A DNA stretch of 64,000 nt from Amphibalanus amphitrite (lineage: Eukaryota; Arthropoda; Thecostraca; Balanomorpha; Balanidae): the NCBI RefSeq assembly GCF_019059575.1, contig NW_024881538.1:434001-498000 (forward strand), given 5' to 3'. Below are positions 3,301 through 40,390 of the stretch, piece by piece; the first letter of the stretch is position 1, and every line of letters starts with the position of its first letter. Below the pieces are notes generated by a model. That model was not told the DNA's origin. It did not search any database and saw only the letters and a list, made by a program, of their open reading frames with translations. Both the position numbers and the translations under genes were made by a program.

Positions 3301-6300
3301 CGGCGACAGAGAGGACAGTCGCGCAGCACCTTCTTCACGAGCGCACGTCCTCTGGGGATCCAGTATTTTATCCGCAGATCATTGAGCACGTGGTCTACTC
3401 CAGAATGCATCAGTCTTTCGTGTGACGACGTGATGATCAGGGCGGTCACACGGCTGTCTCTGGGCAGGATCGCCGGGTGGCGAGTTTCTTCGGGTAAGGG
3501 TGCGTTGGTGAGACGGCCACCAACTCGAAGCACACCGTCTCCATCCAGCTGAGGTGTCAGCGGCTGCAGGTGGCTGTCTGTACGAACGCCACGGCCCTTC
3601 TCTAGCGCTGAGACCTCCTGAGCAAAGGAGGTGCGCTGCATCTGGCGCACGATGGCGGTCTCTGCGCTCTGCAGCTCCTCAGATGACAGCGGACCAGTCA
3701 GCTTCCTAGCTGGATTGCCGTCTACGCCATAGGTCGCTGCAAAGTTGTGTAGAAATCGGCGAATCCATCCCATGGTTCGCTTGAATCGCGCCCAGCTGGA
3801 AAACCGATCAGGGTCCGGTCCTACGATCGCGGATGGCTGACCTTCACAACGAGTGGTCAGCACAGCCTTTGCTTCTGGGTCGTTTTTGTCCACTTCAGAC
3901 CGCTCACGGTTGCTCGGCCAGCATTCCTCCGGTCGCCATAGGAAGTCGGGCCCTCTTACCCAGCGGCTGTCTCTGGTCAGTTCAGAAGCCATCAGTCCAC
4001 GGGAGCAGTCGTCGGCGGGGTTGCATTCGCCCGGTGTGTGTCTCCATTGATTGGGATGCGTCGAATCGCGAATCTCAGCGACTCGATTCGCAATGAAGGT
4101 ATGAAACCTTTTACTATCATTTGAGATGTAACTCAGCACGACTCGGCTGTCGCTCCAGTATATGGTATCGTGCAGTTCCAGCGTCAGCTCCTTTTTCACA
4201 CAGGTGGCCAGCCGCACCGCCAGAACGGCGGCCTGAGTCTCCAGACGCACGATGGTTAGCTTTTGCAGAGGAGCTACACGACATTTGCTCATGACGAGCG
4301 CGCAGTTGATCTGTCCGTCCTCGTGTATTTCGCGGAGGTAAGCGACGGCACCAAATGCCCTCTCCGAGGCATCACAGAAAATATGAAGCTGTCTCAGCGA
4401 GACCGCGGCGTTCTGAGCTCCATACCAGCGTGAGACTCTCACATCAGCGACTCTCGGTAGGTCAGCCAGCCACAATGACCACTGGCGTGACTCCTCATCA
4501 GCAAGAACGGCATCCCAGCCCAGTTGGCTTGACCACAGATCCTGTAGCAGCAGCTTGGCAATGAGCACAAACGGCGAAACCAGTCCGAGCGGATCGAAAA
4601 TGGAAGCCACGACACGCAGTATTTCTCGCTTTGTCGCCTTCTCTACTGCAGGTGTGGGTACAGCCACATGTAGGTCATCAGTCTGCGCGTCCCACGTCAC
4701 GCCCAACACCTTCTCCGAGGGTAGCTGGACGCTCAGGTCGGCTGCACTTGGCACGCGCTCAGTGACTGGGATCGAAGATAGCACATCTTTGCTGTTGCTT
4801 AGCCACTTTCTGAGACGAAAACCACCTCTGGCTAGAAGTTCTGTGACCTCTCTCACCGTTTGTAGAGCGGTGTCACTGTTTTTCTCTGACGTGGCTAAAT
4901 CGTCCATGTAGAAGTTGTTTTTGACCGTGGCTGTCGCTGCACGTCCAGCTGCGGTTGCAGCCCCCTTTTCTTCAGCGGTGCGGTGTAGCACAAAGCTCGC
5001 AGAAGCCGGTGACGACCGTGCACCGAAAATGACTCTATCCATCTGATAGATCTCTGGCGGCTTTCCGGAATCCATGTCACGCCACAAGAATCGAAGTGAT
5101 AACTGATCTTCTCTTTTCACAGCTATCTGAAGAAACATCTTCTCGATGTCAGCAGTCACAGCTACGGCTTCCTGACGGAATCGAAGTAGCACCCCGGGAA
5201 CCGTCTTGAGCAGGTCTGGGCCCGTCAACAGCTGCTCGTTTAATGACACGCCTGCATATTTAGCCGCGGCATCAAAAACGATTCTGAACTTCCCAGGCTT
5301 CGTGGGATTCGTGACGGCATGATGTGGTAAAAACCACTGTTTGCCGTCCTGATTCTCACAGTCGTCTTCGACCTTTCTTGCATATCCGTTTGACATGTAG
5401 TCCTTCATTGTCTGTCGATAGGCGTCAGCCTTGTCCGGTGCTCGTTTCAGCGCTCTTTCTGTGGCTTCTAGCCGCCGCACAGCCATCTGATAGTTGTCAG
5501 GTAGCCTTACGTCCTGGGATCGCCACAGGAGACCCGTTTCATAACGGTCCCCGCGCCATCGAGTTGAATGCTCCATCTGTCGCTCGGCTAGCCGATCTTC
5601 GTACGAGTGTGGCTGGGTCATGGCGTGGGTGGTACCGAATGCATCTGTAGTCCACCATTCTTGCATTAGCTCCGTTAACTCGTCATCAGCAGAGCGGTCT
5701 CTGACCATGTGCATGATCTCTCTCGCTCCCACAGGGACCAAGCTTGTGACCTTTCCTGTCAGACACCAACCGAAATGTGTCTTGATCGCCACTGGCTGCC
5801 CCGGTTTTCCAATCCTGGCTTCCTTTTGCACGACAGCTTCCATGACGTTCGCGCCGAGCAGCAGCTCCACCGTCTGGTGATTTGTGTCTGGCAGTTCTAT
5901 GTCGGACAGATGGCTCCATTTCTCGCGCTGGCTCCAGTCGACTCTCGTGGGGCGGACGTTAAGCTGCGGCACCGTGAACGCCTCCGCCACCGTCACGATC
6001 TCAGTCTCGCCGCCTGGGGACAGTGGAGACAACTGCAGACTCACCTTCAAGGACGGTTTGCTCGGACCTGAACTTTCAACATTGCTGAGTCGCAGCCGTT
6101 CGGCCGAGCCGGTAATGGACAGATCCCGGACTACTTGTTCCGTGCAGAGGGACGTGTCTGCGCCAGGATCTAACAAGGCGTGGGTGTCACGGTACGATCC
6201 TCCATCTCCATGAATTCTCACAGGAACAACTTGCAGGAGTGTTGCATTCGTTCTGGTAGGCAACTGACCAGCCGCGGTGGATAGCACGCGCCTCGGATTG

Positions 6301-9300
6301 TCTGCCTCCGCGCCAGTTGATGGCCTCACACATATCTGAGTCGGTGCCGTGATGTGAAGCAGGTGATGGTGCTTGCCCTTACATCCATTTTGCCCACACA
6401 CTGTCTTTCTAGGACACTTCCTAGCCCAGTGAGCATCACTGAGGCAGCGGAAACACCGCCGGCAGTCCCGTACCAGCCGGAGGCGCTCCTCAGGTGGCGC
6501 TGCTAGCAGAGTCGGACAGGCACTCAGCTCGTGCCACTCCGCCTTGCACACACTACACTGCTCGGTCCCGGTCGCTGTAGCCAACGTAGTGCGCCACGAC
6601 CCAGCCGGTGGCTTCTGACGCTGCTGCACCCGGGATGGTGACGACCTTCTGTTGCCTCTTGACTGCGTTACCGGAGCTGTTCCAGTCTCATCTTGGACCA
6701 GACCTGGCAGGGCGCGGCGACCAGCCAACACAATTCCCTTCAGCCACTGGTCTAGGTCGGCCAGCGTCGGAAAACGCGGCAACAGCTCTACCTCTCTCTG
6801 ACCCCACTGCCAAGCGAGAGAGGCTGGTAGTTTTGAAACAACTTGTCTGAGGTTCGTCGTGGCGGTCAGATCACCCTGGAAGTGAAGTGAAGAGAGGACG
6901 CTCACGGCAGCGTGTAGCGCTCGTGATAGGCTTGTCAGAGCGCTCAAGTCATTTTGTTTCACAGCTGGGTGCTGAAGAACACTCGACAGGGTACTGCCGA
7001 CTACGCTGGAAGGGTCTCCAAATTGTAGTTCCAGCTCGTTCATGGCCTCTTGGTAGAGGCTGCCGTCACATAGTAGCCCTCGCACTGCTTCACGAGCATC
7101 GCCGGTCAAACATGACTGCAAATGAACCATTCGCTCGGTGTCCGTCAGCGACCGGCTCTCGTGCACGAGTGTTCGGAACATAGCGCTCCATCTTGGCCAT
7201 TCTAATGGCGCCCCGCTGAATTTCTCCAGCGTCACCTTCGGTAGCGCCGAGCACTCTCGTGTAATGCCACTGCCGGCGCCGTCGGACGGTAAGTTTTGAA
7301 CCCATCCTCTCGTCCGTCTCTGAGGGTCTTCTTCGCCTGTATTCAGCTCTGGCTGCCCACACTGGTGCCTCACCGCATGTCTGGCCGCCGCTCCAAGTCG
7401 AGATTCGCGCCTGCTCGCTAAACTGTCAGCTCGGTCTTCAATTTCCTCATCTTCTTCAAGTAGTTTTAGCTCGAGTGCGTCCACCTCGGCCTGGTCGGCT
7501 GCTCGCTGAGCTTCTTCTCTGGCCTCTTCCATTTGGGCCTCAGCATTCCTCTGGGCCCGCTTTATCGCCGCGTCTGCAGCCTTTTGGGCCTGCTCAGCCC
7601 GCAGCTTCGAGAGCTGAGCTCGTCTCCAGGCTCCACTTCTCTTGGAGGAGGTTGTTTTCTCTGACGATGCCTCGCTCCTTGTTTTGAGTGATTCGGCTCC
7701 ATCAGGCCCACGCATAGTGCCACTTAAATCAATTGCACTTCATAAAACAATCGTTTACCGCGACCGCTACAATAATTAAGCTTTTACGGATAATCCCGTT
7801 ACAAGTATCCGGCCCGGAGGACCATTAAATGTTGATGTCAATTAACACTTCTACTGTTTTGCCGGCCTTAACGAGAAAATCAAGCTTTACACATTAAAGG
7901 GTCGTTGTATTTCGTGATAATAAATTATAGGCCAAAATTAAAACAAAGTTAGTTTTAGAATTCCCTCAGATCAATCACACATTCAGTAAAAACAAAAATC
8001 GATTCTTGCGCATTTTTCAACGCGCTGACAGCCAGGCAACACTTCTGATGAGCCAAGCAAATGCATCATGGACGCCTCATCCGTAAATATTCAATTTGTT
8101 GTTTTGGAAACAACAAGAGATGTCATGGAAAACTACCGGACGGACGGTGTCAGAATAGTTCAGTTCAGAGCCTATCGTCCGAACGAGGCGGTGAATTCAA
8201 AAGTCTCTGAACCCCGATTGAAGGTGTCCTGTGTCGCAATCAAATCATCCGACAAAGGTGGCTGAAATCATAAGAAATAATACCTAGTTTATACGAGTGT
8301 CAAAGTGTGTTGATTATATCTCCTTATATTAAATGAAGAAGCAACTAATGATTATTTATCCTGTGTAATGCACTTTTATAAATCACATGGAAAGCAGTGC
8401 AATGGTCTGATGGTAAAGAGTAGGATTTAAAAATCTTAGGGCTATATTTGAAACGATTAGGTGTAGGTTCCTTATGCTGCACTTTTGCCGAGCTAGCTGC
8501 AAGAAATGGTATCCGTATCCATCAAAATTAAATATTGGCTGTTGTTTGATGAGAATCGACCACAACGTAATGAAGCGGAGCCTACTGCATTTCAATTTTC
8601 TCCAATACAGCCGGGAAGGGGCCGCCAATAAAGTGCGACATTCGAGCTACAGCAAACAGCGTCTGTTGACCAATGACCGACTGGGACAGACACGTGCCAG
8701 ATGTTGATTGGTCGGCTCAAATGACTCCGGCTGGCGTTATTGGCTCCCAGCGGCCTCGAATCCGGTCAGTCACACATCGATCCACCATTGATCACCGACT
8801 TTGGTCACCAACCACTGAAGTGTAACAACCGACCTGTGACTAGTAAACCTGACCACTGACCACTGATTACTGACTACTGACTACTAACCAGTGAAGACAA
8901 ACTTGTGACAAATGACAACCGACCAGCGCGGCGACCGGGGTCTCTATCGGGCATCTTCCTCTTTACCTCACAGCTTCACTCAATCTGACAGTTTTATCAC
9001 TACGTAACCTCTCCCCGCTACCCCAGCAGAGATACCTACCGGAGCTAATGCCCTCATCGGCCGACATGTCCAGTTCGTTCATCAGGCTGGTGTGAGCCGT
9101 GCTGGGACTCGAGTGACGGCTCAGCACCTCCAGTCGGTCCGTCAGAGACGTGTTGGTCGCCGCTAGCTCGCCCACCTGTGTAGGGAAAAGAAATATCGTG
9201 ATGGCGTTAATTGACCTTTGACGTAATCAATTAACACGGCATCGTCAGCAGTAAACACACCGGCAAGCTGTAAGGCAGCTGATGAGATAATTTAGAAAGA

Positions 9301-25367: not shown

Positions 25368-25463
25368 GAGAACTCATTTCGAATATAATTAGATAAATAA
25401 AAGAAGTTGACCTTTTCCTCGACATCAAAAATGTAAAAAGCCGAATAATATATTTTAAAAAAC

Positions 25464-25496
25464 GGTGAGCTTTCGGCCACTGGCCTTTATCAAACC
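25464..25496 (-). ncRNA. Hammerhead-ribozyme-like motif, PLE left arm
   Basis: Inverted copy of the motif at 40221-40253, with the same core, stem II and putative cleavage site on the minus strand. Confidence 0.45.
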
Positions 25497-26842
25497 AACG
25501 TGATAACAATGTTAAAAGACGATCCTGTGAATAATCTGTCTGCCATTTTTCAAAAACCGAAGATCGTGATATTTTAGGAAAGGCGCTACTCATAAGGGCA
25601 AACTATTTGATAGACCGATTGTCTACATAGTGTCCGATGTACGTAACATACATAATATACAATTGTACACGTAGCTGTCAAACACACATCGTATGGAAGG
25701 TATGTTGTAGCACGCTACATCTTGAACATTTAACGTAGTATCTTTTCGGCACGGCTCGGTACGGCAGTTCCCCCCCCCCCTCGCAGTCCGGTCACAGGCC
25801 TAGCCCTCCATTCACTCACCCATCGCTGCTACCGGGTGACGCACAGCTGAGCGGAGCGCTGCTGCTGCGCTCCCCTCCCCTCTCATTATTCACCCCCCCC
25901 AGTCACCAGGCCCACCATCCCCCACACATCACTTTTCTCCATCTCCCGCAACGAGCACTGTCCGTGGGAATAGCCGCAGTAGACACATCTGCGAGAAGAC
26001 GATGCCGCCTACATCAGTACGAACCGTCGAGGCACAGCTGAGTCAACAAGCTACGTCAGGACCGCGGCCGGCGGCGGCGGCGAGCGAGCACGTTAAGGTA
26101 CTCTGTCACTTGTCACGTACTCTGTCAGGTACCACAACAGCTGCACCGCGCTGAGTCACATGGTGGGAATGGCACAACCAGGAAGATCCTATGGCAAGCA
26201 AAAACGCAGTAGTTCCAGAGGTCTTCGCAATGGGCAACCGTTAAACTCTCATTACGACGCCCGCCTATGGAGACAGCTACCGCAGGATGAGCGATTCGAA
26301 CCTCCTCAAATAACGCTGCATCAGCAAAAGATGTCAACAGATCATGGAGCAGTGTCAAGGATGGATGCCGGCTGGAGCACACAGCCTCCTTTGTCGGGCA
26401 CAGCAACCCAGGGTGAGTGAACCTGGCAAAACAACCGGGTGACCGACCTCACAATGGCCTCATGAGGTAGTTCCAGAGATCTCCGCAGAGGAAGAAGGCG
26501 CTGACTTACGGCACGCCCGAGACGGTGGGCGGAGCAAGAGTGACGTCACAAGGGGCGTTGCCGGCAGACGAAACGGAAGGAAACAAAAGTTTGAATAAAA
26601 TGAAATTGAAGAATTAAAATTAAAACTCGAAAATCACAAACCTTTCGGGGATTGTTTTATGCCAGCGATTATTAAAATGATAAAGCACTCAACACGAAGA
26701 CGATTCGACGGCCAAAAATTGCAGGCACAGAGGAGCAAGGTGACTAAACAGGACAGAGGGCGCCATCTTACGGCCCCACCCACCAGAAGAAGGCAGAGGA
26801 AGATGACGTCGCAAGGGCGTGGCAGTCACCCCTCCCCCCAAC

Positions 26843-26880
26843 TATAAAAGGGTGCGCCACCCAACCAGAGGCAGAATCAC
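26843..26880 (+). promoter_or_regulatory. Predicted LTR promoter (copy 1)
   Basis: TATAAAAG at 26843-26850 lies about 30 bp before AATCACAGTCG, a possible initiator near 26,877. Upstream are TGACGTCA (about 26,541) and a TGACGTCG (about 26,804). The same sequence is at 33372 in copy 2. Confidence 0.6.
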
Positions 26881-27888
26881 AGTCGAGCAGCCGAGAGTCA
26901 CAGTCTGCAGCCGGAGCCGGAGACGCCATCTGGAGGCCGCCGTCAGTCCGGGGTCACCCGCGAGAAGCCTCTTCAGTTCGAGTGATCAGAACCGAGGACA
27001 GTAGCCGACGCTTGTGACCACACTGAGAAGCGGAAGCGCAGAGAAACTCCAGAATGTGAGTGTTGTTGAAAAGTCTGCTCAATCCCAATCCTTGACCCCC
27101 CCCCCCTCTGCCCGGTTGCCGTGCCGTGACGACTGCCAAACATTTTCGGTTGCCATAAAATGCACTCTCAATTGGAATTGGAAAACTTAAATTACTTTGA
27201 GCTTATTGGTCCAGACACCCTAGTAGCATATTAGGATCTGAATTTCGAAGTCATGTCAGAGTCGCCAGCAAACCGTTATTGTCAGTTGGAGTTCACGATT
27301 AGGCCCAGAGCGAGAGGCTAAAATTTGAATAAGCAGCTCATGGTCACGAACGTTGAGATTGATGACTGGATGTGTGACAGCGTTGAAATGTCTTTGTCTT
27401 CGGTCAAGCTGGTTCGTTCGATTTATTATGGGCGATGGCCAGGTGCGTTTTGAGGTTGGAACGTTTGTGAAATTAAGGGTTTAGATTCGTGCTGTACTCA
27501 CTAAAAGTTGCATTGCGAAATCATTGGTAATATTGCTGTAGGAATTAATTGCGAAGTCGAAATCAATTATAGAACAGGTAAATACGGTTGAAAGGGAATG
27601 TAATGTTTTAAGGTGGCGACTGATTCATGCGATCGATCTATGAATATGGCTATGAGTTATGATTTCCGACAGATACGAATGCTTGAGCTTACGGCGGAAT
27701 TTCTTCTGTTACTTAGGTGCAGAGTTGCGAGCAGTGGTTTGAGGTTGACGGTTTGACACTTAGCGACTTTAGATGGTCACTTTGCGTCATTGAAATTGCG
27801 AAATGTCGAGTAACAGGTAGATGTAGAATTGTTTGTGGTTAGAACTAATATGCGACTAATATAGGTGCCGATCGTTGTGCTTTTGTAG

Positions 27889-27894
27889 AATAAA
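27889..27894 (+). terminator. Possible LTR polyadenylation signal
   Basis: AATAAA about 1 kb after the predicted start, in a T/G-rich context. If used it would define a roughly 1-kb R region. Other AATAAA copies exist, so the choice is tentative. Confidence 0.35.
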
Positions 27895-30339
27895 TACTAG
27901 AAAGGACCACCTTTGTTGGGGAACGATTAAATGGGACAGGAATTTAATTTAAAAAAAACTTACGTTGAATGGAGCTGATGAGATGTCGAACAGGGAGATA
28001 TTGCAGCGATATTTTACCAGATTCACACTCACTGACACATCCGGTGAATCCACCCGGCCAGAAGAGACAACACGCACGAGCATTGCACCGCGAGTGATGA
28101 CGCGCCCATCGCGGCGTGGCCTTGACTGACTGTCGACGCGACGCCAGCCGGCGGCCAGTATCGTCGCTCTCGACGCGGGCGTTGAGCCGCCAGAGGGCGT
28201 AAAAAGCAGCCACAACAGGGGCAGTGGGTTAGCCGTAATTGGGGCGCGGGCGGTAGGTGAAGGTCATTGTATATAGGAGCATGGTTAGTTGTGGAAAGTT
28301 GCAACGGGGTAAGAACGTAAACAGTTAATGCATAATTTTAAATATGACATGCTATTTGATATTTAGGACTGCACTTCGTTTGATGCGCATTGTTTACTGC
28401 TAATAGGATGATTTAAAATAGATTCCCTATGAAAGGCTAGGGACCCTATGACAATATTCTGGCACTCTATAAAGATAATTTGTTTAGGTAACTAGTAGCC
28501 CATCAGAAGCTATCGAACGAGTTTCAAGGAGTCATTTCCGTTTGAGCATTCAGCAATTCACTATGATACGGTGGATCACAACCAGACGACAGATCGGTGC
28601 GTACTAATTGGTTCTAGATTATCTGATGAAATCAAGAGCGGTTCAAGGTCTGCTAGGATTGTTTACGAGAACTGATGATTAGGTTCACGCGTGCAGCAGC
28701 AATTAGGACTTGAGATTACGATTAGATGCGTTTCTGTTATTCGCGTTCTTGAGAGTTAGCGCCAATAATTACTCCACCAATATTGGCACAGGGCATTGTG
28801 AGGCACAGACGGCTTGTTTGCCCGTCTCCTATGGCGTAGCGTTTACCAGCATGACCGTATGAGACACAGATGCACTTCTCTAAACCCACGTCCAGACCGG
28901 AATAATAAGAGGGACACGCCGTCACGTACGCAGGGCATATGCACGTTTTCCGCCAGTGGTACCGGCCACTGTTAATTTTCCCGCTTAGGTAACACTGGGT
29001 GAGAAGGCAGTGAGAGGTTTCTACGGCAGGGGGAAGGGGAAGATTGGCACAGTGTGCAGTGGAGAGTAAGTTATGCCAAAGGCAAGAAGCCGAGGGTCAG
29101 GGGTGAGTCACCCAAAAGTGCGGATAAGGCGCGCCGTAGTGTCCCGAATAAGTCCTCATACTTATTTTGTAAAGGTACCTTAATCGGTACTGGACAGCCT
29201 CAGGGGAGGGAAGAATGTACTCCAGGACACGTAAGGCCTTGAAGAGTAAATCCCATGGTTTAAGGAGAGTTCCTGAGGAGAGTTCCAGGATATGAACGGT
29301 GGTCCCTGGGTCGTGAACGGGAATGTTACACGCGGACCGGAAGAGGGCATAGGTAATCTCTCCCGGTAGAGAGATAAGTCGGATATAAATCGTGTATGTG
29401 TGTACCATAAGTCTATCGGACGTGTAGTGAATCCCATAAATTAGTAGGGTGGATATTTGTGTATAATTATTCTGGACGGCCCTGCGATAAGTATCTTTGT
29501 CGCCGGTTAGCGGAGCATGCATATGGATTTCGGAAAGAGACATTTATCTCGCCGGGGAGACCATGGTTTGTAAGACGCCTAACACTATCGGAGGGAATTT
29601 CGGGGGCTACCAATTAAATTTGGGTGAATACATGAAATGTGAACGTAATGCGAGCAAGGATGTGAGAATGATGACGCATGAATCTTAGAGTAAGGCCGAT
29701 AGGAATTTGGTAGAATTCGGTTATGGCAGTCGAACAAATGATTCTCGAGGGCAACTAAACTAGCAACGCTAATACGAACTAAGCGGGCAATTTTTGTAAT
29801 GGGGAGGCCAGTGATATAGGAATGGGTGACTGGACGAATGATCACATTCAATTAATCAATGTAATTACCACCCATATGTTTGGCAGTGGTCATCGGGACT
29901 TCGAATGCCCTGTCCTTCACCTGCCCAACTGTGCTGCAAACCCAGCTGATCGGATCCCTCTATCCCTAATCCGAGCAGTGAAGAAGCATCTCGTGCATCA
30001 TGGTCTATACAATGAACAGAATCATCAAGCCTCCAATTTAAAAAGCATCTTCCATCAGATGTATTTGTACGCAAGGTGGATACTTACATCTCTATCCGGT
30101 GGATCTCATCTATCTCAGGATCTCATCACTATCTGGATCTCTCACTAGATCTATCTCGGGATCTCTTCAACGACTCTCAAGCTCCCCTGTTCTACCAGCT
30201 CTACTATCGAGTTCCTTCCAGCAGCGAATCTCTTTTCTGCTACACCGCCGAACAGCAGTGGACCGCGCTGTTTGATGAACCTCAAGATGCAGCTTTTTTT
30301 ATTTCTGTACTTTTCCTCCCCTTCATTCCCTTGCTACAA

Positions 30340-30429
30340 ATGGCGCCCAAAACGTGGGGATTTGATAATTCTCAAATTGTGAAGCTGGTAGACTGGCACA
30401 AGCCGCCGAACCCGAAGTTGATGAATTGA
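30340..30429 (+). pseudogene. Short frame starting at the primer site, possible gag remnant
   Basis: 29 codons, MAPKTWGFDNSQIVKLVDWH and on, then a stop. A further charged frame starts at 30,441, and an approximately 55-bp block (AGCAGGTGTTCGAAATACTG...) is duplicated 141-142 bp apart (about 30,468 and 30,609). This looks like decayed coding DNA. No family is recognised. Confidence 0.3.
30341..30360 (+). other. Primer-binding site of the giant-LTR element
   Basis: TGGCGCCCAA begins 2 nt after the LTR end and is followed by AACGTGGGGA. This is the tRNA-Lys complement (TGGCGCCCAACGTGGGG) with two extra A residues. The preceding base makes an ATG that overlaps the site. Confidence 0.8.
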
Positions 30430-31094
30430 AAGTCAACCGTATGGAGAAGAGGAAGAAGTCGAAGAATAGAGCAGGTGTTCGAAATACTGGCAGCAGTGGA
30501 AATGAGCGTGCTGCAGGGGTCGATATGAAGAAAGAGGATGAGCTAAAGAAAGCTGTGTGAAGATGATGAAGCTTATGATGGTGGCTGATGACAGGAAAGT
30601 TGAAGAATTGAGCAGGTGTTCGAAATACTGACAGCAGTGGAAATGAACGTGCTGCAGGGGTCGACGTGAAGGAACTGATGAGAGGAAGCGGTCTTACGAA
30701 TACTGAAAAGGACATAGAAGAAGCTGTTGAAGATAAGATAAGGAAATGAAGCTGTCTCATGAACAAAGGATCAGACTAATACAGAAGACAGGCCGAAAAT
30801 GAAACTTGACAATTGTTTGCATCAGCATATCAATTCTTCTACGTTCTGCTGTACAACAAGTCCAAGTCACGGTCAGCTGCTGTATTGCAAAGGAGAGCTC
30901 GAACTTTCTAGAGTATTGAGGATAAAAGGACAGCAATATCAAAAGCAGAAGAGGAAGAACAGGCGGAATGCTCGTGTTGTACTGAATCAAAATCAAACAC
31001 GGTCGTCTTCACAACACAGCCAAGGCGATTATCATGTTGGTGAACGAGGAGAGGGTGCCAGGATGCTGCAAGACCAACTGCCAAACGATCCATT

Positions 31095-31975
31095 CAGATG
31101 GGCTGCTGCAGAGATCACCCACCTGGGCTGCTGCGACGGCTGTCACCTGGTCCGCCGAAAGGTCGCTACCTGAGCTGCCACGGAGGTCACCTGTGCTGCC
31201 ACGAAGGATGCATTGCCCTCGCGGGCTGCCTCGGAGGTCACTCACCTGAGCGGCCGCGGAAGTCGCCTACCTGAGCTGCCACGGAGGAAGCATTGGTCCC
31301 GCGTGCTGCCTCGGGGGGTCACTCACCTGATCGGCCGTGGAAGTCGCCTACCTGAGCTGCCACGGAGGAAGCATTGGTCCCGCGTGCTGCCTCGGGGGGT
31401 CACTCAACTGAGCTGCCGCGGAAGTCGCCTACCTGAGCTGCCACGGGGGATGCATTGCCATCGCGTGCTGCCTCGGGGGTCACTCACCTGAGCTGCCGCG
31501 GAAGTCGCCTACCTGAGCTACCACGGAGGCTGTCACCGGGTCTGCCACGAGGGTCACCTACCTGGGCTGCCACGGAAGTCGCCTACCTGAGCTACAACGG
31601 AGGCTGTCACGGGTCTGCCACGATGGTCACCCAACCGGGCTGCCACGGGGATGCATTGCCCTCGCGTGCTGCCTCGGGGGTCACCCACCTGAGCTGCCAT
31701 GGAGGTCGCTCACCTGAGCTGCCACGGAGCCTGCCACCCGGGCGGCCACGGAGGTCGCGGCAGGGCCGGCCATGGAGGTCGCCTACCCGGACTGCCACGG
31801 AGGTGTCGTCCACCTGGGCTGCCACGTAGGCTGCCCACGCGGGCCGCCGTGCAAGCTGCCCACCCGGGCTGCCATGGAGGCCGCCACCCGGGCCGCCATG
31901 AGGCTGCCATGGAGGCTGCCACCCGAACTGCTGTGGAGGCCGCCCACCTGGGCTGCCGCAGAGGTCTTCACCCTC
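31095..31975. repeat. Minisatellite in the internal region of the giant-LTR element
   Basis: Roughly 30-bp units around CACCTGAGCTGCCACGGAGG fill about 0.9 kb. Within it is a higher-order repeat of 80-81 bp (AGTCGCCTAC at 31261, 31342, 31423 and 31503). The 81-bp unit equals 27 codons, but the frame shifts later, so coding is doubtful. Confidence 0.85.
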
Positions 31976-32030
31976 CTAAGAAGCCGCTTACCGGACGACA
32001 ACCGACGACATCGGGCTAACCAAAGTGGTT

Positions 32031-32174
32031 GGTGCCCGTGACCCGGATCTGGTGAACGACAAACTGAGGTGGGGACGAGGAACAACAGGTGCGTGTGTGT
32101 ACTGTACTAGGTATACGATGTCATGCTGTGGGCGTTGCGGAAGTTCACATGATTGTGTAAATTTAGATGAGTAA
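32031..32174 (+). pseudogene. Cys-rich 47-codon tail, possible Gag zinc-knuckle remnant
   Basis: A frame ending TAA at 32172-32174 contains C-x2-C, then CCGRCGSSHDC (C-x2-C-x3-H-x-C), resembling but not matching a CCHC knuckle. It could be chance. Confidence 0.2.
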
Positions 32175-32233
32175 GGGGTGTGACTTTTTTGTATGAGTTG
32201 CGAGGACGCAACTAGGGTTGTTTGGACTGAAGA

Positions 32234-35200
32234 TGTAGCACGCTACATCTTGAACATTTAACGTAGTATCTTTTCGGCACGGCTCGGTACGGCAGTTCCC
32301 CCCCCCCCTCGCAGTCCGGTCACAGGCCTAGCCCTCCATTCACTCACCCATCGCTGCTACCGGGTGACGCACAGCTGAGCGGAGCGCTGCTGCTGCGCTC
32401 CCCTCCCCTCTCATTATTCACCCCCCCCCAGTCACCAGGCCCACCATCCCCCACACATCACTTTTCTCCATCTCCCGCAACGAGCACTGTCCGTGGGAAT
32501 AGCCGCAGTAGACACATCTGCGAGAAGACGATGCCGCCTACATCAGTACGAACCGTCGAGGCACAGCTGAGTCAACAAGCTACGTCAGGACCGCGGCCGG
32601 CGGCGGCGGCGAGCGAGCACGTTAAGGTACTCTGTCACTTGTCACGTACTCTGTCAGGTACCACAACAGCTGCACCGCGCTGAGTCACATGGTGGGAATG
32701 GCACAACCAGGAAGATCCTATGGCAAGCAAAAACGCAGTAGTTCCAGAGGTCTTCGCAATGGGCAACCGTTAAACTCTCATTACGACGCCCGCCTATGGA
32801 GACAGCTACCGCAGGATGAGCGATTCGAACCTCCTCAAATAACGCTGCATCAGCAAAAGATGTCAACAGATCATGGAGCAGTGTCAAGGATGGATGCCGG
32901 CTGGAGCACACAGCCTCCTTTGTCGGGCACAGCAACCCAGGGTGAGTGAACCTGGCAAAACAACCGGGTGACCGACCTCACAATGGCCTCATGAGGTAGT
33001 TCCAGAGATCTCCGCAGAGGAAGAAGGCGCTGACTTACGGCACGCCCGAGACGGTGGGCGGAGCAAGAGTGACGTCACAAGGGGCGTTGCCGGCAGACGA
33101 AACGGAAGGAAACAAAAGTTTGAATAAAATGAAATTGAAGAATTAAAATTAAAACTCGAAAATCACAAACCTTTCGGGGATTGTTTTATGCCAGCGATTA
33201 TTAAAATGATAAAGCACTCAACACGAAGACGATTCGACGGCCAAAAATTGCAGGCACAGAGGAGCAAGGTGACTAAACAGGACAGAGGGCGCCATCTTAC
33301 GGCCCCACCCACCAGAAGAAGGCAGAGGAAGATGACGTCGCAAGGGCGTGGCAGTCACCCCTCCCCCCAACTATAAAAGGGTGCGCCACCCAACCAGAGG
33401 CAGAATCACAGTCGAGCAGCCGAGAGTCACAGTCTGCAGCCGGAGCCGGAGACGCCATCTGGAGGCCGCCGTCAGTCCGGGGTCACCCGCGAGAAGCCTC
33501 TTCAGTTCGAGTGATCAGAACCGAGGACAGTAGCCGACGCTTGTGACCACACTGAGAAGCGGAAGCGCAGAGAAACTCCAGAATGTGAGTGTTGTTGAAA
33601 AGTCTGCTCAATCCCAATCCTTGACCCCCCCCCCTCTGCCCGGTTGCCGTGCCGTGACGACTGCCAAACATTTTCGGTTGCCATAAAATGCACTCTCAAT
33701 TGGAATTGGAAAACTTAAATTACTTTGAGCTTATTGGTCCAGACACCCTAGTAGCATATTAGGATCTGAATTTCGAAGTCATGTCAGAGTCGCCAGCAAA
33801 CCGTTATTGTCAGTTGGAGTTCACGATTAGGCCCAGAGCGAGAGGCTAAAATTTGAATAAGCAGCTCATGGTCACGAACGTTGAGATTGATGACTGGATG
33901 TGTGACAGCGTTGAAATGTCTTTGTCTTCGGTCAAGCTGGTTCGTTCGATTTATTATGGGCGATGGCCAGGTGCGTTTTGAGGTTGGAACGTTTGTGAAA
34001 TTAAGGGTTTAGATTCGTGCTGTACTCACTAAAAGTTGCATTGCGAAATCATTGGTAATATTGCTGTAGGAATTAATTGCGAAGTCGAAATCAATTATAG
34101 AACAGGTAAATACGGTTGAAAGGGAATGTAATGTTTTAAGGTGGCGACTGATTCATGCGATCGATCTATGAATATGGCTATGAGTTATGATTTCCGACAG
34201 ATACGAATGCTTGAGCTTACGGCGGAATTTCTTCTGTTACTTAGGTGCAGAGTTGCGAGCAGTGGTTTGAGGTTGACGGTTTGACACTTAGCGACTTTAG
34301 ATGGTCACTTTGCGTCATTGAAATTGCGAAATGTCGAGTAACAGGTAGATGTAGAATTGTTTGTGGTTAGAACTAATATGCGACTAATATAGGTGCCGAT
34401 CGTTGTGCTTTTGTAGAATAAATACTAGAAAGGACCACCTTTGTTGGGGAACGATTAAATGGGACAGGAATTTAATTTAAAAAAAACTTACGTTGAATGG
34501 AGCTGATGAGATGTCGAACAGGGAGATATTGCAGCGATATTTTACCAGATTCACACTCACTGACACATCCGGTGAATCCACCCGGCCAGAAGAGACAACA
34601 CGCACGAGCATTGCACCGCGAGTGATGACGCGCCCATCGCGGCGTGGCCTTGACTGACTGTCGACGCGACGCCAGCCGGCGGCCAGTATCGTCGCTCTCG
34701 ACGCGGGCGTTGAGCCGCCAGAGGGCGTAAAAAGCAGCCACAACAGGGGCAGTGGGTTAGCCGTAATTGGGGCGCGGGCGGTAGGTGAAGGTCATTGTAT
34801 ATAGGAGCATGGTTAGTTGTGGAAAGTTGCAACGGGGTAAGAACGTAAACAGTTAATGCATAATTTTAAATATGACATGCTATTTGATATTTAGGACTGC
34901 ACTTCGTTTGATGCGCATTGTTTACTGCTAATAGGATGATTTAAAATAGATTCCCTATGAAAGGCTAGGGACCCTATGACAATATTCTGGCACTCTATAA
35001 AGATAATTTGTTTAGGTAACTAGTAGCCCATCAGAAGCTATCGAACGAGTTTCAAGGAGTCATTTCCGTTTGAGCATTCAGCAATTCACTATGATACGGT
35101 GGATCACAACCAGACGACAGATCGGTGCGTACTAATTGGTTCTAGATTATCTGATGAAATCAAGAGCGGTTCAAGGTCTGCTAGGATTGTTTACGAGAAC

Positions 35201-36866
35201 TGATGATTAGGTTCACGCGTGCAGCAGCAATTAGGACTTGAGATTACGATTAGATGCGTTTCTGTTATTCGCGTTCTTGAGAGTTAGCGCCAATAATTAC
35301 TCCACCAATATTGGCACAGGGCATTGTGAGGCACAGACGGCTTGTTTGCCCGTCTCCTATGGCGTAGCGTTTACCAGCATGACCGTATGAGACACAGATG
35401 CACTTCTCTAAACCCACGTCCAGACCGGAATAATAAGAGGGACACGCCGTCACGTACGCAGGGCATATGCACGTTTTCCGCCAGTGGTACCGGCCACTGT
35501 TAATTTTCCCGCTTAGGTAACACTGGGTGAGAAGGCAGTGAGAGGTTTCTACGGCAGGGGGAAGGGGAAGATTGGCACAGTGTGCAGTGGAGAGTAAGTT
35601 ATGCCAAAGGCAAGAAGCCGAGGGTCAGGGGTGAGTCACCCAAAAGTGCGGATAAGGCGCGCCGTAGTGTCCCGAATAAGTCCTCATACTTATTTTGTAA
35701 AGGTACCTTAATCGGTACTGGACAGCCTCAGGGGAGGGAAGAATGTACTCCAGGACACGTAAGGCCTTGAAGAGTAAATCCCATGGTTTAAGGAGAGTTC
35801 CTGAGGAGAGTTCCAGGATATGAACGGTGGTCCCTGGGTCGTGAACGGGAATGTTACACGCGGACCGGAAGAGGGCATAGGTAATCTCTCCCGGTAGAGA
35901 GATAAGTCGGATATAAATCGTGTATGTGTGTACCATAAGTCTATCGGACGTGTAGTGAATCCCATAAATTAGTAGGGTGGATATTTGTGTATAATTATTC
36001 TGGACGGCCCTGCGATAAGTATCTTTGTCGCCGGTTAGCGGAGCATGCATATGGATTTCGGAAAGAGACATTTATCTCGCCGGGGAGACCATGGTTTGTA
36101 AGACGCCTAACACTATCGGAGGGAATTTCGGGGGCTACCAATTAAATTTGGGTGAATACATGAAATGTGAACGTAATGCGAGCAAGGATGTGAGAATGAT
36201 GACGCATGAATCTTAGAGTAAGGCCGATAGGAATTTGGTAGAATTCGGTTATGGCAGTCGAACAAATGATTCTCGAGGGCAACTAAACTAGCAACGCTAA
36301 TACGAACTAAGCGGGCAATTTTTGTAATGGGGAGGCCAGTGATATAGGAATGGGTGACTGGACGAATGATCACATTCAATTAATCAATGTAATTACCACC
36401 CATATGTTTGGCAGTGGTCATCGGGACTTCGAATGCCCTGTCCTTCACCTGCCCAACTGTGCTGCAAACCCAGCTGATCGGATCCCTCTATCCCTAATCC
36501 GAGCAGTGAAGAAGCATCTCGTGCATCATGGTCTATACAATGAACAGAATCATCAAGCCTCCAATTTAAAAAGCATCTTCCATCAGATGTATTTGTACGC
36601 AAGGTGGATACTTACATCTCTATCCGGTGGATCTCATCTATCTCAGGATCTCATCACTATCTGGATCTCTCACTAGATCTATCTCGGGATCTCTTCAACG
36701 ACTCTCAAGCTCCCCTGTTCTACCAGCTCTACTATCGAGTTCCTTCCAGCAGCGAATCTCTTTTCTGCTACACCGCCGAACAGCAGTGGACCGCGCTGTT
36801 TGATGAACCTCAAGATGCAGCTTTTTTTATTTCTGTACTTTTCCTCCCCTTCATTCCCTTGCTACA
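32234..36866 (+). repeat. Giant LTR, copy 2
   Basis: 4,633 bp, co-linear with copy 1 at an offset of 6,528-6,529 bp. It is followed directly by the ATGT target duplication and resumption of the Penelope-like left arm. Confidence 0.93.
33372..33409 (+). promoter_or_regulatory. Predicted LTR promoter (copy 2)
   Basis: TATAAAAG at 33372-33379 with the same flanks as copy 1. Transcription from here would read out through the rest of the LTR into the Penelope-like sequence. Confidence 0.55.
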
Positions 36867-36981
36867 ATGTACACTAACGCCGATGTACATCACACACATA
36901 ACAAAATAATATACACATACACATATTAATCGATTGAGTTGAAAAGGCTACACGCTCACAAGATACACATGATACAGGCGC

Positions 36982-38067
36982 TTACATGATTGGCCACGAC
37001 GAAAGATTTGAGTTTATGTGCGGGCGGTTTGCTTTTATAAGTAGGGATTCTGCGATTTTTCTGTCCGGGTGGTCTTTGGAGCGATAAAGGACGCGAACCT
37101 GAAGAGGAAGGGATGATTTGTTTAGCGGCGCGCCGGGGTGGTGCTCACGGAAGTGGTCTCCCATCGGGGTCCCTTCGGATGCGCTCAAGGCGTCTCGTAA
37201 ATGTTCGTTAAATCTTAGTCGAACAGGTCGTTTTGTCTCGCCAATATATGTGCCGTCGTCACCCTTTCCTTCACACAACTTACAATTTAGCCTGTAGACG
37301 ACGTTCTTCTGTGTACAATCACCTGAAAAATCTGATTTACACATGTTGCATCGTGGGCCTCCAGGGCAGATAGGTTTAGATAGTGATGATCTAACCAGTT
37401 TGTTTCGTAGCTTTTGGGGGTTCCTCCATGCTATCCTGACAGCTAAGCCAGATTTCCTAACTTTACTTTGAATTTTGCATAGCAGTTCTTCATCTATGTA
37501 CGGTAAACATAAGAAGCCATCTTCGCCCTTGTCTCGACTAACTTTACCCATCCTGGATCTGGACCCTTGCTGTTTGACCTCCCACAAGAGCCTTCTAAGA
37601 ACTTTCTCTGGGTACCCATTTTGAACCAACAATGTCCAAATCTTGTCTATACTCGCCCTCTCTTTAGCACTGCTCGAAGAGTTCCTGATCGCTCGCCGAA
37701 ACTGACTACGGACTATGTTTTGTTTAGTAGACTTCGGGTGGGCTGATTTATAGTGCAGGATGATCCCTGAGTTCGTAGGTTTTATGTAAAGTTCCGTTTC
37801 AATCTTCGTAACCTGGCCCTGGGTCACTACTGTCACTAAGGTATCTAGGAAGGCCACACCCGACTTTGTACCGGAATGCTCCATGGTAAAGCGGAGTGTC
37901 GGATGAAGCGAGTTTAAATGCGACAGAAAATCTACCAAAGCCTGCTCTCCATAGGTCCACACGCCTGCGAAATGGATCAGAAACCGTCCTTTTTGGTTCG
38001 GTACATTGACGATTACGCAGGCGTGTGGACCTATGGAGAGCAGGCTTTGGTAGATTTTCTGTCGCAT
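36982..38067 (-). pseudogene. Penelope-like RT end + GIY-YIG endonuclease, left arm
   Basis: 361-codon frame. The first 33 codons are an artefact of reading across the palindrome centre. From GVWTYGE it is genuine PLE sequence: the last part of the reverse transcriptase (AFLDTLVTV, about residues 35-85), a linker, a Cys cluster (C240-x2-C243...C251), then the GIY-YIG nuclease with VVYRLNCKLC (256-265), TYIGETKRPVRLRFNEHL (273-290), HFREHHPG, and a late Glu in AESLL (E340) that may be catalytic. The N-terminal RT is missing. It is essentially identical to the right-arm copy (one Leu/Val difference seen). Confidence 0.9.
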
Positions 38068-38116
38068 TTAAACTCGCTTCATCCGACACTCCGCTTTACC
38101 ATGGAGCATTCCGGTA

Positions 38117-39011
38117 GGGGAGAGTGGGGCAAAGCGGCCACCCGGGGCAAAGCGGCCACCCATCGTTTTAGCACTTCATAGCTGGCGTCAGTTTCAATTT
38201 ATGGTTTCCAATTATACTTCTCTTCACGGTCGTTCGAATGAGCCAGACCGGGCTTTCAGGCCCATCACCATTGTTCTGTGAAACACGGAAAAGCATTTCT
38301 TGCCAGGTTACCAACTATGTTTACAATTTTTAAATGTTATGCTATTTCATAACCATTTGGAATTTTTATAAGCGTTCTTGTCCATGCGTTGCATTGTTAT
38401 CGTACATGTATTCTACCAATTTTAATGTTTTTTACCCCACTAATAGCTAAGCTGGAATATTTTTGTCTCGGACGGTATGCGCGGGGCAAAGTGGCCGGGG
38501 CAAAGTGGCCACCCCCCAATTGGCCATAAGTTGTTTCCATCTGGGTAAAAAAATTATTTATATTCAAATGTGTCGTCATGCATTCATCTTGGCCACTTTT
38601 CAGTTGCATGAGTTACCAAATAATGCCATTAAATGTTTTTTCATGAAAATCCTTTCTTTGTTTACCTACAGGTGGGATGCTAACAAAGCAAACATCCATC
38701 CTTGCTTAAACCTTGTCACCATCAAATACCCTAGTCGTACATGAGGCAACTATTTTGTTTCTCATATCGGGACTTGAGAAGACGCCGGTGGCCGCTTTGC
38801 CCCAGGGTATGGGGCAAAGTGGCCAATATGCATAGGTTTAAAGTTTTGTCAATATCTTCCATATGTGAACGCCTTTGGAAATAAAACGCATTTGAAATGA
38901 AAGGCAACTTAATAGGGATCACATTGGTATAGAAAGAATCTTTCCAAGTTTAAAAATCAAGCGTTGGCACCGTGAGAAGCGTTAGGGTGGCCGCTTTGCC
39001 CCACTCTCCCC
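38117..39011. mobile_element. TA-flanked MITE in the Penelope-like right arm
   Basis: 895 bp between TA duplications (38115-38116, 39012-39013). The empty site is visible in the left arm as CCGGTACAAAG. The inverted ends GGGGAGAGTGGGGCAAAG and the following GCGGCCACC match at both sides. The core motif GGGGCAAAG(C/T)GGCC recurs inside near 38,135, 38,484, 38,499, 38,790 and 38,811. There is no transposase frame. The TA target suggests a Tc1/mariner-like driver. Confidence 0.9.
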
Positions 39012-39024
39012 TACAAAGTCGGGT

Positions 39025-39900
39025 GTGGCCTTCCTAGATACCTTAGTGACAGTAGTGACCCAGGGCCAGGTTACGAAGATTGAAACGGAACTTTACATAA
39101 AACCTACGAACTCAGGGATCATCCTGCACTATAAATCAGCCCACCCGAAGTCTACTAAACAAAACATAGTCCGTAGTCAGTTTCGGCGAGCGATCAGGAA
39201 CTCTTCGAGCAGTGCTAAAGAGAGGGCGAGTATAGACAAGATTTGGACAGTGTTGGTTCAAAATGGGTACCCAGAGAAAGTTCTTAGAAGGCTCTTGTGG
39301 GAGGTCAAACAGCAAGGGTCCAGATCCAGGATGGGTAAAGTTAGTCGAGACAAGGGCGAAGATGGCTTCTTATGTTTACCGTACATAGATGAAGAACTGC
39401 TATGCAAAATTCAAAGTAAAGTTAGGAAATCTGGCTTAGCTGTCAGGATAGCATGGAGGAACCCCCAAAAGCTACGAAACAAACTGGTTAGATCATCACT
39501 ATCTAAACCTATCTGCCCTGGAGGCCCACGATGCAACATGTGTAAATCAGATTTTTCAGGTGATTGTACACAGAAGAACGTCGTCTACAGGCTAAATTGT
39601 AAGTTGTGTGAAGGAAAGGGTGACGACGGCACATATATTGGCGAGACAAAACGACCTGTTCGACTAAGATTTAACGAACATTTACGAGACGCCTTGAGCG
39701 CATCCGAAGGGACCCCGATGGGAGACCACTTCCGTGAGCACCACCCCGGCGCGCCGCTAAACAAATCATCCCTTCCTCTTCAGGTTCGCGTCCTTTATCG
39801 CTCCAAAGACCACCCGGACAGAAAAATCGCAGAATCCCTACTTATAAAAGCAAACCGCCCGCACATAAACTCAAATCTTTCGTCGTGGCCAATCATGTAA
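39025..39900 (+). pseudogene. Penelope-like RT end + GIY-YIG endonuclease, right arm
   Basis: 291 codons downstream of the MITE. Before the MITE, 37,971-38,114 encodes the same protein's RYIDD motif, the YxDD polymerase active site, so this arm reaches slightly further 5' than the left one. Endonuclease motifs are as in the left arm and complete. The protein is broken by the 895-bp insertion and lacks the rest of the RT. Confidence 0.9.
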
Positions 39901-40220
39901 GCGCCTGTATCATGTGTATCTTGTGAGCGTGTAGCCTTTTCAACTCAATCGATTAATATGTGTATGTGTATATTATTTTGTTATGTGTGTGATGTACATC
40001 GGTGTTAGTGTACATACCTTCCATACGATGTGTGTTTGACAGCTACGTGTACAATTGTATATTATGTATGTTACGTACATCGGACACTATGTAGACAATC
40101 GGTCTATCAAATAGTTTGCCCTTATGAGTAGCGCCTTTCCTAAAATATCACGATCTTCGGTTTTTGAAAAATGGCAGACAGATTATTCACAGGATCGTCT
40201 TTTAACATTGTTATCACGTT

Positions 40221-40253
40221 GGTTTGATAAAGGCCAGTGGCCGAAAGCTCACC
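40221..40253 (+). ncRNA. Hammerhead-ribozyme-like motif, PLE right arm
   Basis: The layout fits a type I hammerhead: GGT (40221-40223, stem I), TTGATAA core plus one extra A, stem-loop GGCC AGT GGCC (40232-40242), GAA, a two-pair stem III AG/CT without loop, C at 40250 as the cleavage position, and ACC (40251-40253, stem I). The usual core is CTGATGA: positions 3 and 8 are changed C to T and G to A, so the 3-8 pair would still form. Hammerheads with tiny stem III are known in Penelope-like elements. Activity is uncertain because G8 is the general acid. Confidence 0.5.
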
Positions 40254-40390
40254 GTTTTTTAAAATATATTATTCGGCTTTTTACATTTTTGATGTCGAGG
40301 AAAAGGTCAACTTCTTTTATTTATCTAATTATATTCAATATGTTCCTCGCTCGAGCACTTAGTAATATTACCAATCGAGAACTCATTTCG

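Follow-up and report, generated by a model that had tools for sequence, protein, structure and literature searches.

Here we describe a long terminal repeat (LTR) retrotransposon found in a window of 64,000 nucleotides of Amphibalanus amphitrite (Thecostraca; Balanidae), corresponding to positions 434,001 to 498,000 of contig NW_024881538.1 in the NCBI RefSeq assembly GCF_019059575.1; hereafter, the window refers to this whole stretch, and window coordinates are counted from its first base. The element interrupts one arm of an inverted repeat of 1.33 kb (25,375-40,342), and is constituted by two giant LTRs and a short interior in which no protein gene was detected. It belongs to a dispersed family that appears to be young, and a candidate for its autonomous partner was identified in the same genome. 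The structural features of the locus are as follows:

25,702-25,705, no strand: target site duplication (TSD) ATGT, 5' copy, a perfect 4-bp match to the 3' copy
25,706-30,338, forward strand: 5' LTR of 4,633 bp, TGTAGCA...TGCTACA, from self-BLAST and reading of the ends
30,339-32,233, forward strand: interior of 1,895 bp, devoid of detectable protein genes in frame and Pfam scans
32,234-36,866, forward strand: 3' LTR of 4,633 bp, TGTAGCA...TGCTACA, from self-BLAST and reading of the ends
36,867-36,870, no strand: TSD ATGT, 3' copy, a perfect 4-bp match to the 5' copy
39,012-40,342, reverse strand: inverted partner arm with the uninterrupted (empty) site, 1,331 bp aligned with 4 mismatches and no gap

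Comparison of the window with itself by BLAST aligned 25,706-30,339 to 32,234-36,867 with 0 mismatches and 2 gaps; the two LTRs display no substitutions and differ by two 1-bp indels, both in runs of C. Together, they account for 9,266 of the 11,161 bp of the element (83%). When the flanks were joined over a single ATGT, they aligned to the inverted arm over 1,331 bp with 4 mismatches (99.7% identity), and because this alignment is gapless, the empty site is real. The element of the window is a genuine insertion flanked by a 4-bp duplication. A model that read the letters alone (the original prediction) had described the two co-linear 4,633-bp direct repeats with TGTAGCA/TGCTACA ends, the ATGT duplication, the 83% LTR share and an empty site preserved in the inverted arm, all of which were recovered in our analyses. 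Its view of the locus as an insertion, and not a segmental duplication, is supported by the TSD, the empty site and the 13 of 13 scorable copies described below, and the proposed LTR-retrotransposon anatomy, with the shape of a large retrotransposon derivative (LARD), is likewise supported.

A genome search covering 807,550,619 bases in 2,644 contigs was carried out. With up to 3 mismatches, the 30 bases at the LTR start matched 331 times (reversed control, 0), and the junction between the interior and the second LTR 133 times (control, 3); given these controls, the matches are not due to chance. The further copies that the original prediction had suggested looking for are thus present, as a dispersed family rather than a single copy. 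The LTR end followed by the primer site yielded 62 exact matches and at least 38 more with one mismatch, and among these 38 listed sites, C128:1,027,966 and C216 differ in kind; with up to 2 mismatches the count is unusable (181 vs 153 in the control). An uninterrupted 18-mer primer site placed exactly behind TACA-NN was found at 40 genome sites, 39 of them with the AA spacer of the family, and allowing 1 mismatch these figures become 48 and 45, respectively. Subtracting two LTR starts for each of the 133 junctions from the 331 starts leaves about 65, which may correspond to solo LTRs or truncated copies.

The 5' LTRs of 10 other copies measure 4,639-4,741 bp. The lists behind all pairings are partial, comprising 100 of the 133 junctions and 100 of the 331 LTR starts; among the latter, 38 of 39 spacings between neighbouring starts are about 5.9-9.1 kb and one is 4.4 kb, and some listed copies display a shorter LTR-start spacing, to 5.85 kb in a pair. 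TSDs were sought at 21 insertions (the window and two sets of 10), and a perfect 4-bp duplication was present in all 13 that could be scored (ATGT, CCTG, AAAG, ATTC, GAAG, TTAG, CAGT, AGAG, TTTT, AAAT, ATTT, GTCG and GTAG); of the eight unscorable insertions, C302 and C365 have a missing or rearranged end of the second LTR, and in six the ends fall outside the sequence piece. Wherever an insertion could be scored (13 loci), the repeats stop at TG/CA, and even an array of four tandem LTRs has a single duplication around it; the two observations that the original prediction regarded as contrary to an insertion, repeats running past these ends and a plain tandem devoid of TSDs, thus did not refute it. 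A tandem with four LTRs and three interiors is located at C51:1286700-1310334, where the compared LTR parts (~2.5 kb) carry no substitution and a single GTAG duplication brackets the whole array; we attribute it to unequal exchange, or to a multimer, after one insertion. Repeated junctions at ~6.5-kb spacing were also observed at C50 and C675.

Regarding coding capacity, the interior contains no detectable protein gene. Five reading frames gave no significant match in Pfam (best E 0.076, under the cut-off), the variable sites of the interior frame tested were distributed over the codon positions as 29/35/35, with no third-position excess, and reading frames were not conserved as genes in checks on up to 41 copies. 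Pairing of 100 listed primer sites with 100 listed junctions (25 per list remaining unpaired) provided 75 interiors, most of them measured by coordinates and not read; 73 span 1,393-2,540 bp (median 1,883 bp), lengths of 1.4-2.5 kb that are too short to leave room for gag-pol. The two remaining ones (3,232 and 4,528 bp) are split by unrelated stretches, i.e., nested insertions, and the same applies to C397. Furthermore, 30 of the 62 loci with an exact primer site were extracted, the window included, and in every one of them the first 1.5 kb after the primer site corresponds to the interior of the giant-LTR family. The Pfam, codon-position and length evidence agrees with the interior without readable gag-pol described in the original prediction, and, lacking detectable protein genes, the family has to obtain its machinery from elsewhere, i.e., from a different element. 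Copies C751, C278 and C397 were considered as autonomous and rejected on the basis of an interior split by an unrelated stretch. In C751, the stretch nested in the interior (120670-123283) is ~2.6 kb long and ends in terminal inverted repeats of 38 bp.

The age of the copies was assessed by substitution counts between LTR pairs. Eight of the 11 pairs display 0-3 substitutions (0, 1, 0, 1, 2, 3, 2 and 1 per ~4.7 kb, the window copy first), and this near-identity indicates that these copies are young; from such counts, the giant-LTR family is considered young. In C302, C365 and C1003, the pairs differ by 37, 65 and 35 substitutions, respectively, all but one in the last 500 bp, a comparison that in C302 and C365 reaches sequence past the broken end of the second LTR.

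The following signals were recognized within the LTR and the interior:

26,843-26,848, forward strand: TATA box, LTR position 1138, in CTATAAAAGGGTGCGCC, found in all 11 LTRs aligned
27,889-27,894, forward strand: candidate polyadenylation signal AATAAA, LTR position 2184, at the corresponding position in all 11 LTRs
30,341-30,360, forward strand: primer binding site of tRNA-Lys type with 2 extra bases, from sequence reading
30,378-30,413, forward strand: 36-nt leader block, 33 of 36 bases common to the C216 element (see below) by alignment
31,161-31,922, forward strand: GC-rich 81-bp/25-bp tandem repeat block in the interior, differing between copies
32,197-32,212, forward strand: hairpin GTTGCG-AGGA-CGCAAC shortly before the interior ends, identical in all 11 copies, pairing judged by eye
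32,224-32,233, forward strand: weak polypurine-tract position GGACTGAAGA, 8 of 10 purines, identical in all 11 copies

The transcript is predicted to start ~25-60 bases downstream of the TATA box, and AATAAA at LTR position 2184 would be used as the polyadenylation signal. The primer site of the window copy reads TGGCGCCC-AA-AACGTGGGGA, and differs by 2 extra bases and a changed last base from what we take to be the animal tRNA-Lys complement; the tRNA-Lys-type site that the original prediction placed after the first LTR is therefore present, at 30,341, with an imperfect match. Among 11 copies, four have the perfect 18-mer, two a last-base variant and five the 2-base insertion (the window and 4 of the 10 others); this last version occurs in young copies, even though it should bulge against tRNA-Lys, which we presume to be the primer of the family. 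The ~100 bases following the primer site are nearly invariant in the 11 copies, and the 36-nt leader block is proposed as a putative packaging or dimerisation signal. Likewise, the final 39 bases of the interior up to the second LTR, which hold the 6-bp hairpin, do not vary among the 11 copies. The GC-rich middle of the interior varies in length and repeat number, and the final 270 bp of the LTR (~4365-4633), adjoining the conserved terminus, are hypervariable among copies, with identity down to ~69-72%. Scans of the whole window with Rfam (at gathering thresholds) and ARAGORN found nothing.

A candidate source of the missing proteins was identified at C216:590,995, where a perfect tRNA-Lys-type primer site is preceded by the spacer AT (...CCCGTGCTACA-AT-TGGCGCCCAACGTGGGGC). 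At 19 bases after this site, a leader block is identical to that of the giant-LTR family in 33 of 36 positions, with a score of 57 vs a maximum of 25 in 2,000 shuffles. The 69 bases of its LTR end are repeated identically at C216:605,262-605,330, the two ends being 14,332 bp apart. Between them, open and in the same frame, lie pieces corresponding to a reverse transcriptase (PF00078, 593,220-593,420; 31.5 bits vs a cut-off of 29.6) and an integrase zinc-binding domain (PF17921, 594,600-594,840; 27.0 bits vs a cut-off of 25.5), the former upstream of the latter. Based on the primer site, the leader, the LTR ends and these in-frame pieces, we infer that the genome contains a pol-encoding, Ty3/gypsy-like element that has this primer site and leader in common with the giant-LTR family; its assignment to Ty3/gypsy rather than BEL is our assumption, made from the appearance of both fragments and not from a tree. 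An NCBIfam search gave nothing of use and a PDB search no match. As seen so far, C216 and the giant-LTR family have in common the terminal GCTACA, the primer site and the 36-nt leader, and C216 is the best candidate autonomous partner of the family. The partner postulated in the original prediction, sharing primer site and LTR ends, has thus a concrete counterpart in the primer site and the terminal GCTACA of C216, but the LTR end is otherwise different, and mobilisation of the family by C216 remains a candidate relationship.

Other elements were also observed. A BEL/Pao element in the window (1,951-8,115, reverse strand) was rejected as the partner, as it has another primer site and LTR. Its 287-bp LTRs are 100% identical, with CTCT on both sides, and its stop-free frame of 1,802 amino acids contains Peptidase_A17, Integrase_H2C2, DUF1759 and DUF5641 above cut-off, and RVT_1 slightly under it (26.4 vs 29.6 bits); the best database matches of its protein (2,334-7,739) display 59-60% identity, and its Amphibalanus amphitrite relatives 45-54%. 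At C20:629186 and C396:182650, full tRNA-Lys-type primer sites are found behind a different LTR end (CACA-AC), probably belonging to other LTR families with the same primer. Finally, the frames at 36,985-38,067 (reverse strand) and 38,986-39,897 (forward strand) of the window are presumably of Penelope type, with no match to either in Pfam.

Comparison among copies revealed mosaics. In 9 of 40 listed pairs (of a total of 55, drawn from 11 copies and hence not independent), the strongest change point of identity is located at LTR 1167-1238, with 98.7-99.9% identity to its left and 91.1-94.2% to its right (e.g., 99.92 and 92.33% for C261/C343). With respect to the window copy, C302 has an interior 100% identical over 1,895 bp and an LTR of 94.45% identity, and conversely C1003 has an LTR of 99.81% and an interior of 96.51%. 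The rank correlation of distances with those of the interior was 0.11 for the unique 3' region of the LTR (U3; permutation p 0.16), and 0.15 for the repeated and unique 5' regions (R-U5; p 0.14), i.e., interior distances do not follow LTR distances. The natural reading would be that, at the R/U3 border, minus-strand strong-stop DNA is occasionally transferred from the RNA on which it was made to another, different one; since identity switches just after the TATA box, the transcript start would be predictable from the genome sequence alone.

The LTRs, 4-bp TSDs, primer site, absence of a detectable gene, dispersion of copies, near identity of the LTR pairs in the majority of the copies read, and mosaics are consistent with a young non-autonomous LARD-type LTR retrotransposon of Amphibalanus amphitrite, moved by an autonomous Ty3/gypsy element of which C216 is the best candidate, an interpretation to which we assign a probability of about 0.87. 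In the proposed cycle, the TATA promoter ~1.14 kb into the LTR would start a ~7.5-kb non-coding RNA ending at the polyadenylation signal of the second LTR, which would divide the LTR into a U3 of ~1.2 kb, an R of ~1.0 kb and a U5 of ~2.4 kb. This RNA would be packaged, via the conserved leader behind the primer site, into the particles of the autonomous Ty3/gypsy element and primed by tRNA-Lys, its copying would jump between different co-packaged RNAs, and the integrase of the partner would insert the DNA copy.

Several observations weigh against parts of this interpretation. In the 11 copies, an uninterrupted polypurine tract was not found before the second LTR, GGACTGAAGA being the best candidate, and the strongly differing LTR ends in three of the 11 pairs (C302, C365 and C1003) need later rearrangement or conversion. 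Regarding C216, the junction 15-mer of the family is not at this locus among 100 of the 117 exact matches listed (control, 2), its 3' junction appears to differ from that of the family, and the element was read over 593 of its bases. As for the mosaics, the strongest change point lies in the hypervariable end, at LTR 4365-4475, for 24 of the 40 listed pairs, and near LTR 1525 and 3856 for 4 and 3 pairs, respectively; U3 distances correlate with those of R-U5 (rho 0.52, p 0.002), so the exchange is only partial. Part of the mosaicism could be mimicked by gene conversion. That conversion among genomic copies, and not reverse transcription, generated the mosaics is unlikely in our view: although near-identical tandem copies exist, C1003 has unequal LTR ends and the TATA region is the strongest switch in only 9 of the 40 listed pairs, 8 of 11 copies carry the same mosaic in both LTRs with 0-3 differences, and the switches of those nine pairs, not mutually independent, fall within ~70 bases just past the TATA box.

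The identity of the partner admits another answer, somewhat less improbable than conversion but still disfavored, in which a different Ty3/gypsy family mobilises the element and C216 merely shares the ancestry of the leader. tRNA-Lys priming is common to many gypsy families, and C20 and C396 also combine a complete primer site with a different LTR end; however, the 36-nt block is 33/36 identical between C216 and the giant-LTR family, and a frame through it soon stops in both. Moreover, the 40 scored matches (of 129 candidates) to the LTR end and leader of C216 include its own two ends and three C216-like sites (C1658, C1668 and C497), the other 35 being weaker and located, by coordinates, at sites of the giant-LTR family. 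We consider it quite improbable that the element is a recent deletion derivative, i.e., that an autonomous element with the same giant LTRs lost its genes and its intact parent mobilises it. Non-autonomous LTR elements do normally originate by gene loss, and the leader is common to the pol-encoding C216 element, but none of the 75 measured interiors exceeds 4.6 kb (partial lists), both long ones having nested insertions, 38 of 39 LTR-start spacings are 5.9-9.1 kb, the other being 4.4 kb (100 of 331 listed), and both the LTR end and the 3' junction of C216 differ from those of the family. An origin by segmental or tandem duplication instead of retrotransposition, or through an error of assembly, is hardly credible: the empty site in the partner arm refutes it for the window copy, 4-bp TSDs were present in 13 of 13 scorable cases, and even the true tandem at C51, with its four LTRs and three interiors, has a single GTAG duplication around the whole array.

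The first descriptions of LARDs came from plants. The giant-LTR family appears to work as a LARD, constituting an animal member of this known class: its LTRs are several kb long, the element (11,161 bp) exceeds 4 kb, the interior is gene-less, the primer site is next to the 5' LTR, and TSDs flank dispersed copies. Conversely, at 11.2 kb the element is not a terminal-repeat retrotransposon in miniature (TRIM; <4 kb), and a Pao-type pol, as in BEL/Pao, was not found inside the giant LTRs by Pfam scan; C216, with reverse transcriptase upstream of integrase, has the Ty3/gypsy order. The LARD of barley and other Triticeae, with LTRs of ~4.4 kb and a central domain of ~3.5 kb (Kalendar et al., 2004, via PMC3532108), likewise has giant LTRs, a non-coding interior and no proteins of its own, whereas the present family has an animal host, a 4-bp TSD, an interior that is shorter (1.4-2.5 kb in most copies) and contains a GC-rich tandem block, and a weak polypurine tract. 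LARDs are placed in the size class above 4 kb, and TRIMs below it, typically at 0.5-1 kb (PMC4558846). Few non-autonomous/autonomous pairs have been proposed so far, among them Dasheng/RIRE2 of rice, also a large non-autonomous element with a putative autonomous partner in one genome, whose members share extensive sequence similarity (PMC4558846); unlike this pair, only the terminal GCTACA, the primer site and the 36-nt leader were seen in common between our family and C216, the LTRs of C216 being otherwise unread.

Among animals, TRIMs such as PbTRIM of the harvester ant (PMC3532108), the Echinococcus TRIM (PMC4558846) and Helenus/Ajax (PMC10886601) are likewise non-autonomous LTR elements, Helenus also with 4-bp TSDs (PMC10886601), but they differ in size (<4 kb, typically 0.5-1 kb; PMC4558846). 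The non-coding LTR elements of Culex similarly have no coding sequence and carry tandem repeats between the LTRs, with no master copy found there, but the LTRs are 208-315 bp in four table rows; the same source mentions one LARD-like element (PMC3286476). In the honey bee, a table assigns 7,256,932 bp (3.10) to LARD-labelled repeats, derivative elements having been omitted from detailed inspection (PMC4028053). Since such repeats are tabulated in the honey bee and a LARD-like element is mentioned for Culex, the statement of the original prediction that no animal counterpart is known was too strong; nonetheless, no animal family with LTRs this long is described in the literature covered, a scope that excludes most subscription journals, bioRxiv preprints and repeat databases. 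As for the mosaics, in crapaud of Podospora (and in yeast Ty as cited there) the 5' half of the LTR also varies independently of R-U5, and a template switch between co-packaged RNAs was suggested, but crapaud has its own gag and pol frames (PMC10787394).

The candidate partner and the modular exchange are the interesting parts of this new animal LARD. We tentatively propose, with somewhat less than even confidence, a two-tier animal system, in which a gene-less giant-LTR element outnumbers its rare pol-encoding Ty3/gypsy partner, mainly recognition signals are shared between them (the LTR tip, the primer site and the 36-nt packaging leader), and U3, R-U5 and interior are exchanged as modules at strand jumps. 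If this is true, the U5 (2.4 kb) and R (1 kb) regions, which would make the minus-strand strong-stop product ~3.5 kb long, probably carry a function in the RNA. The leader shared by this young family and its candidate partner points to a packaging signal, and would make the capture of foreign particles by a gene-less RNA testable in an animal.

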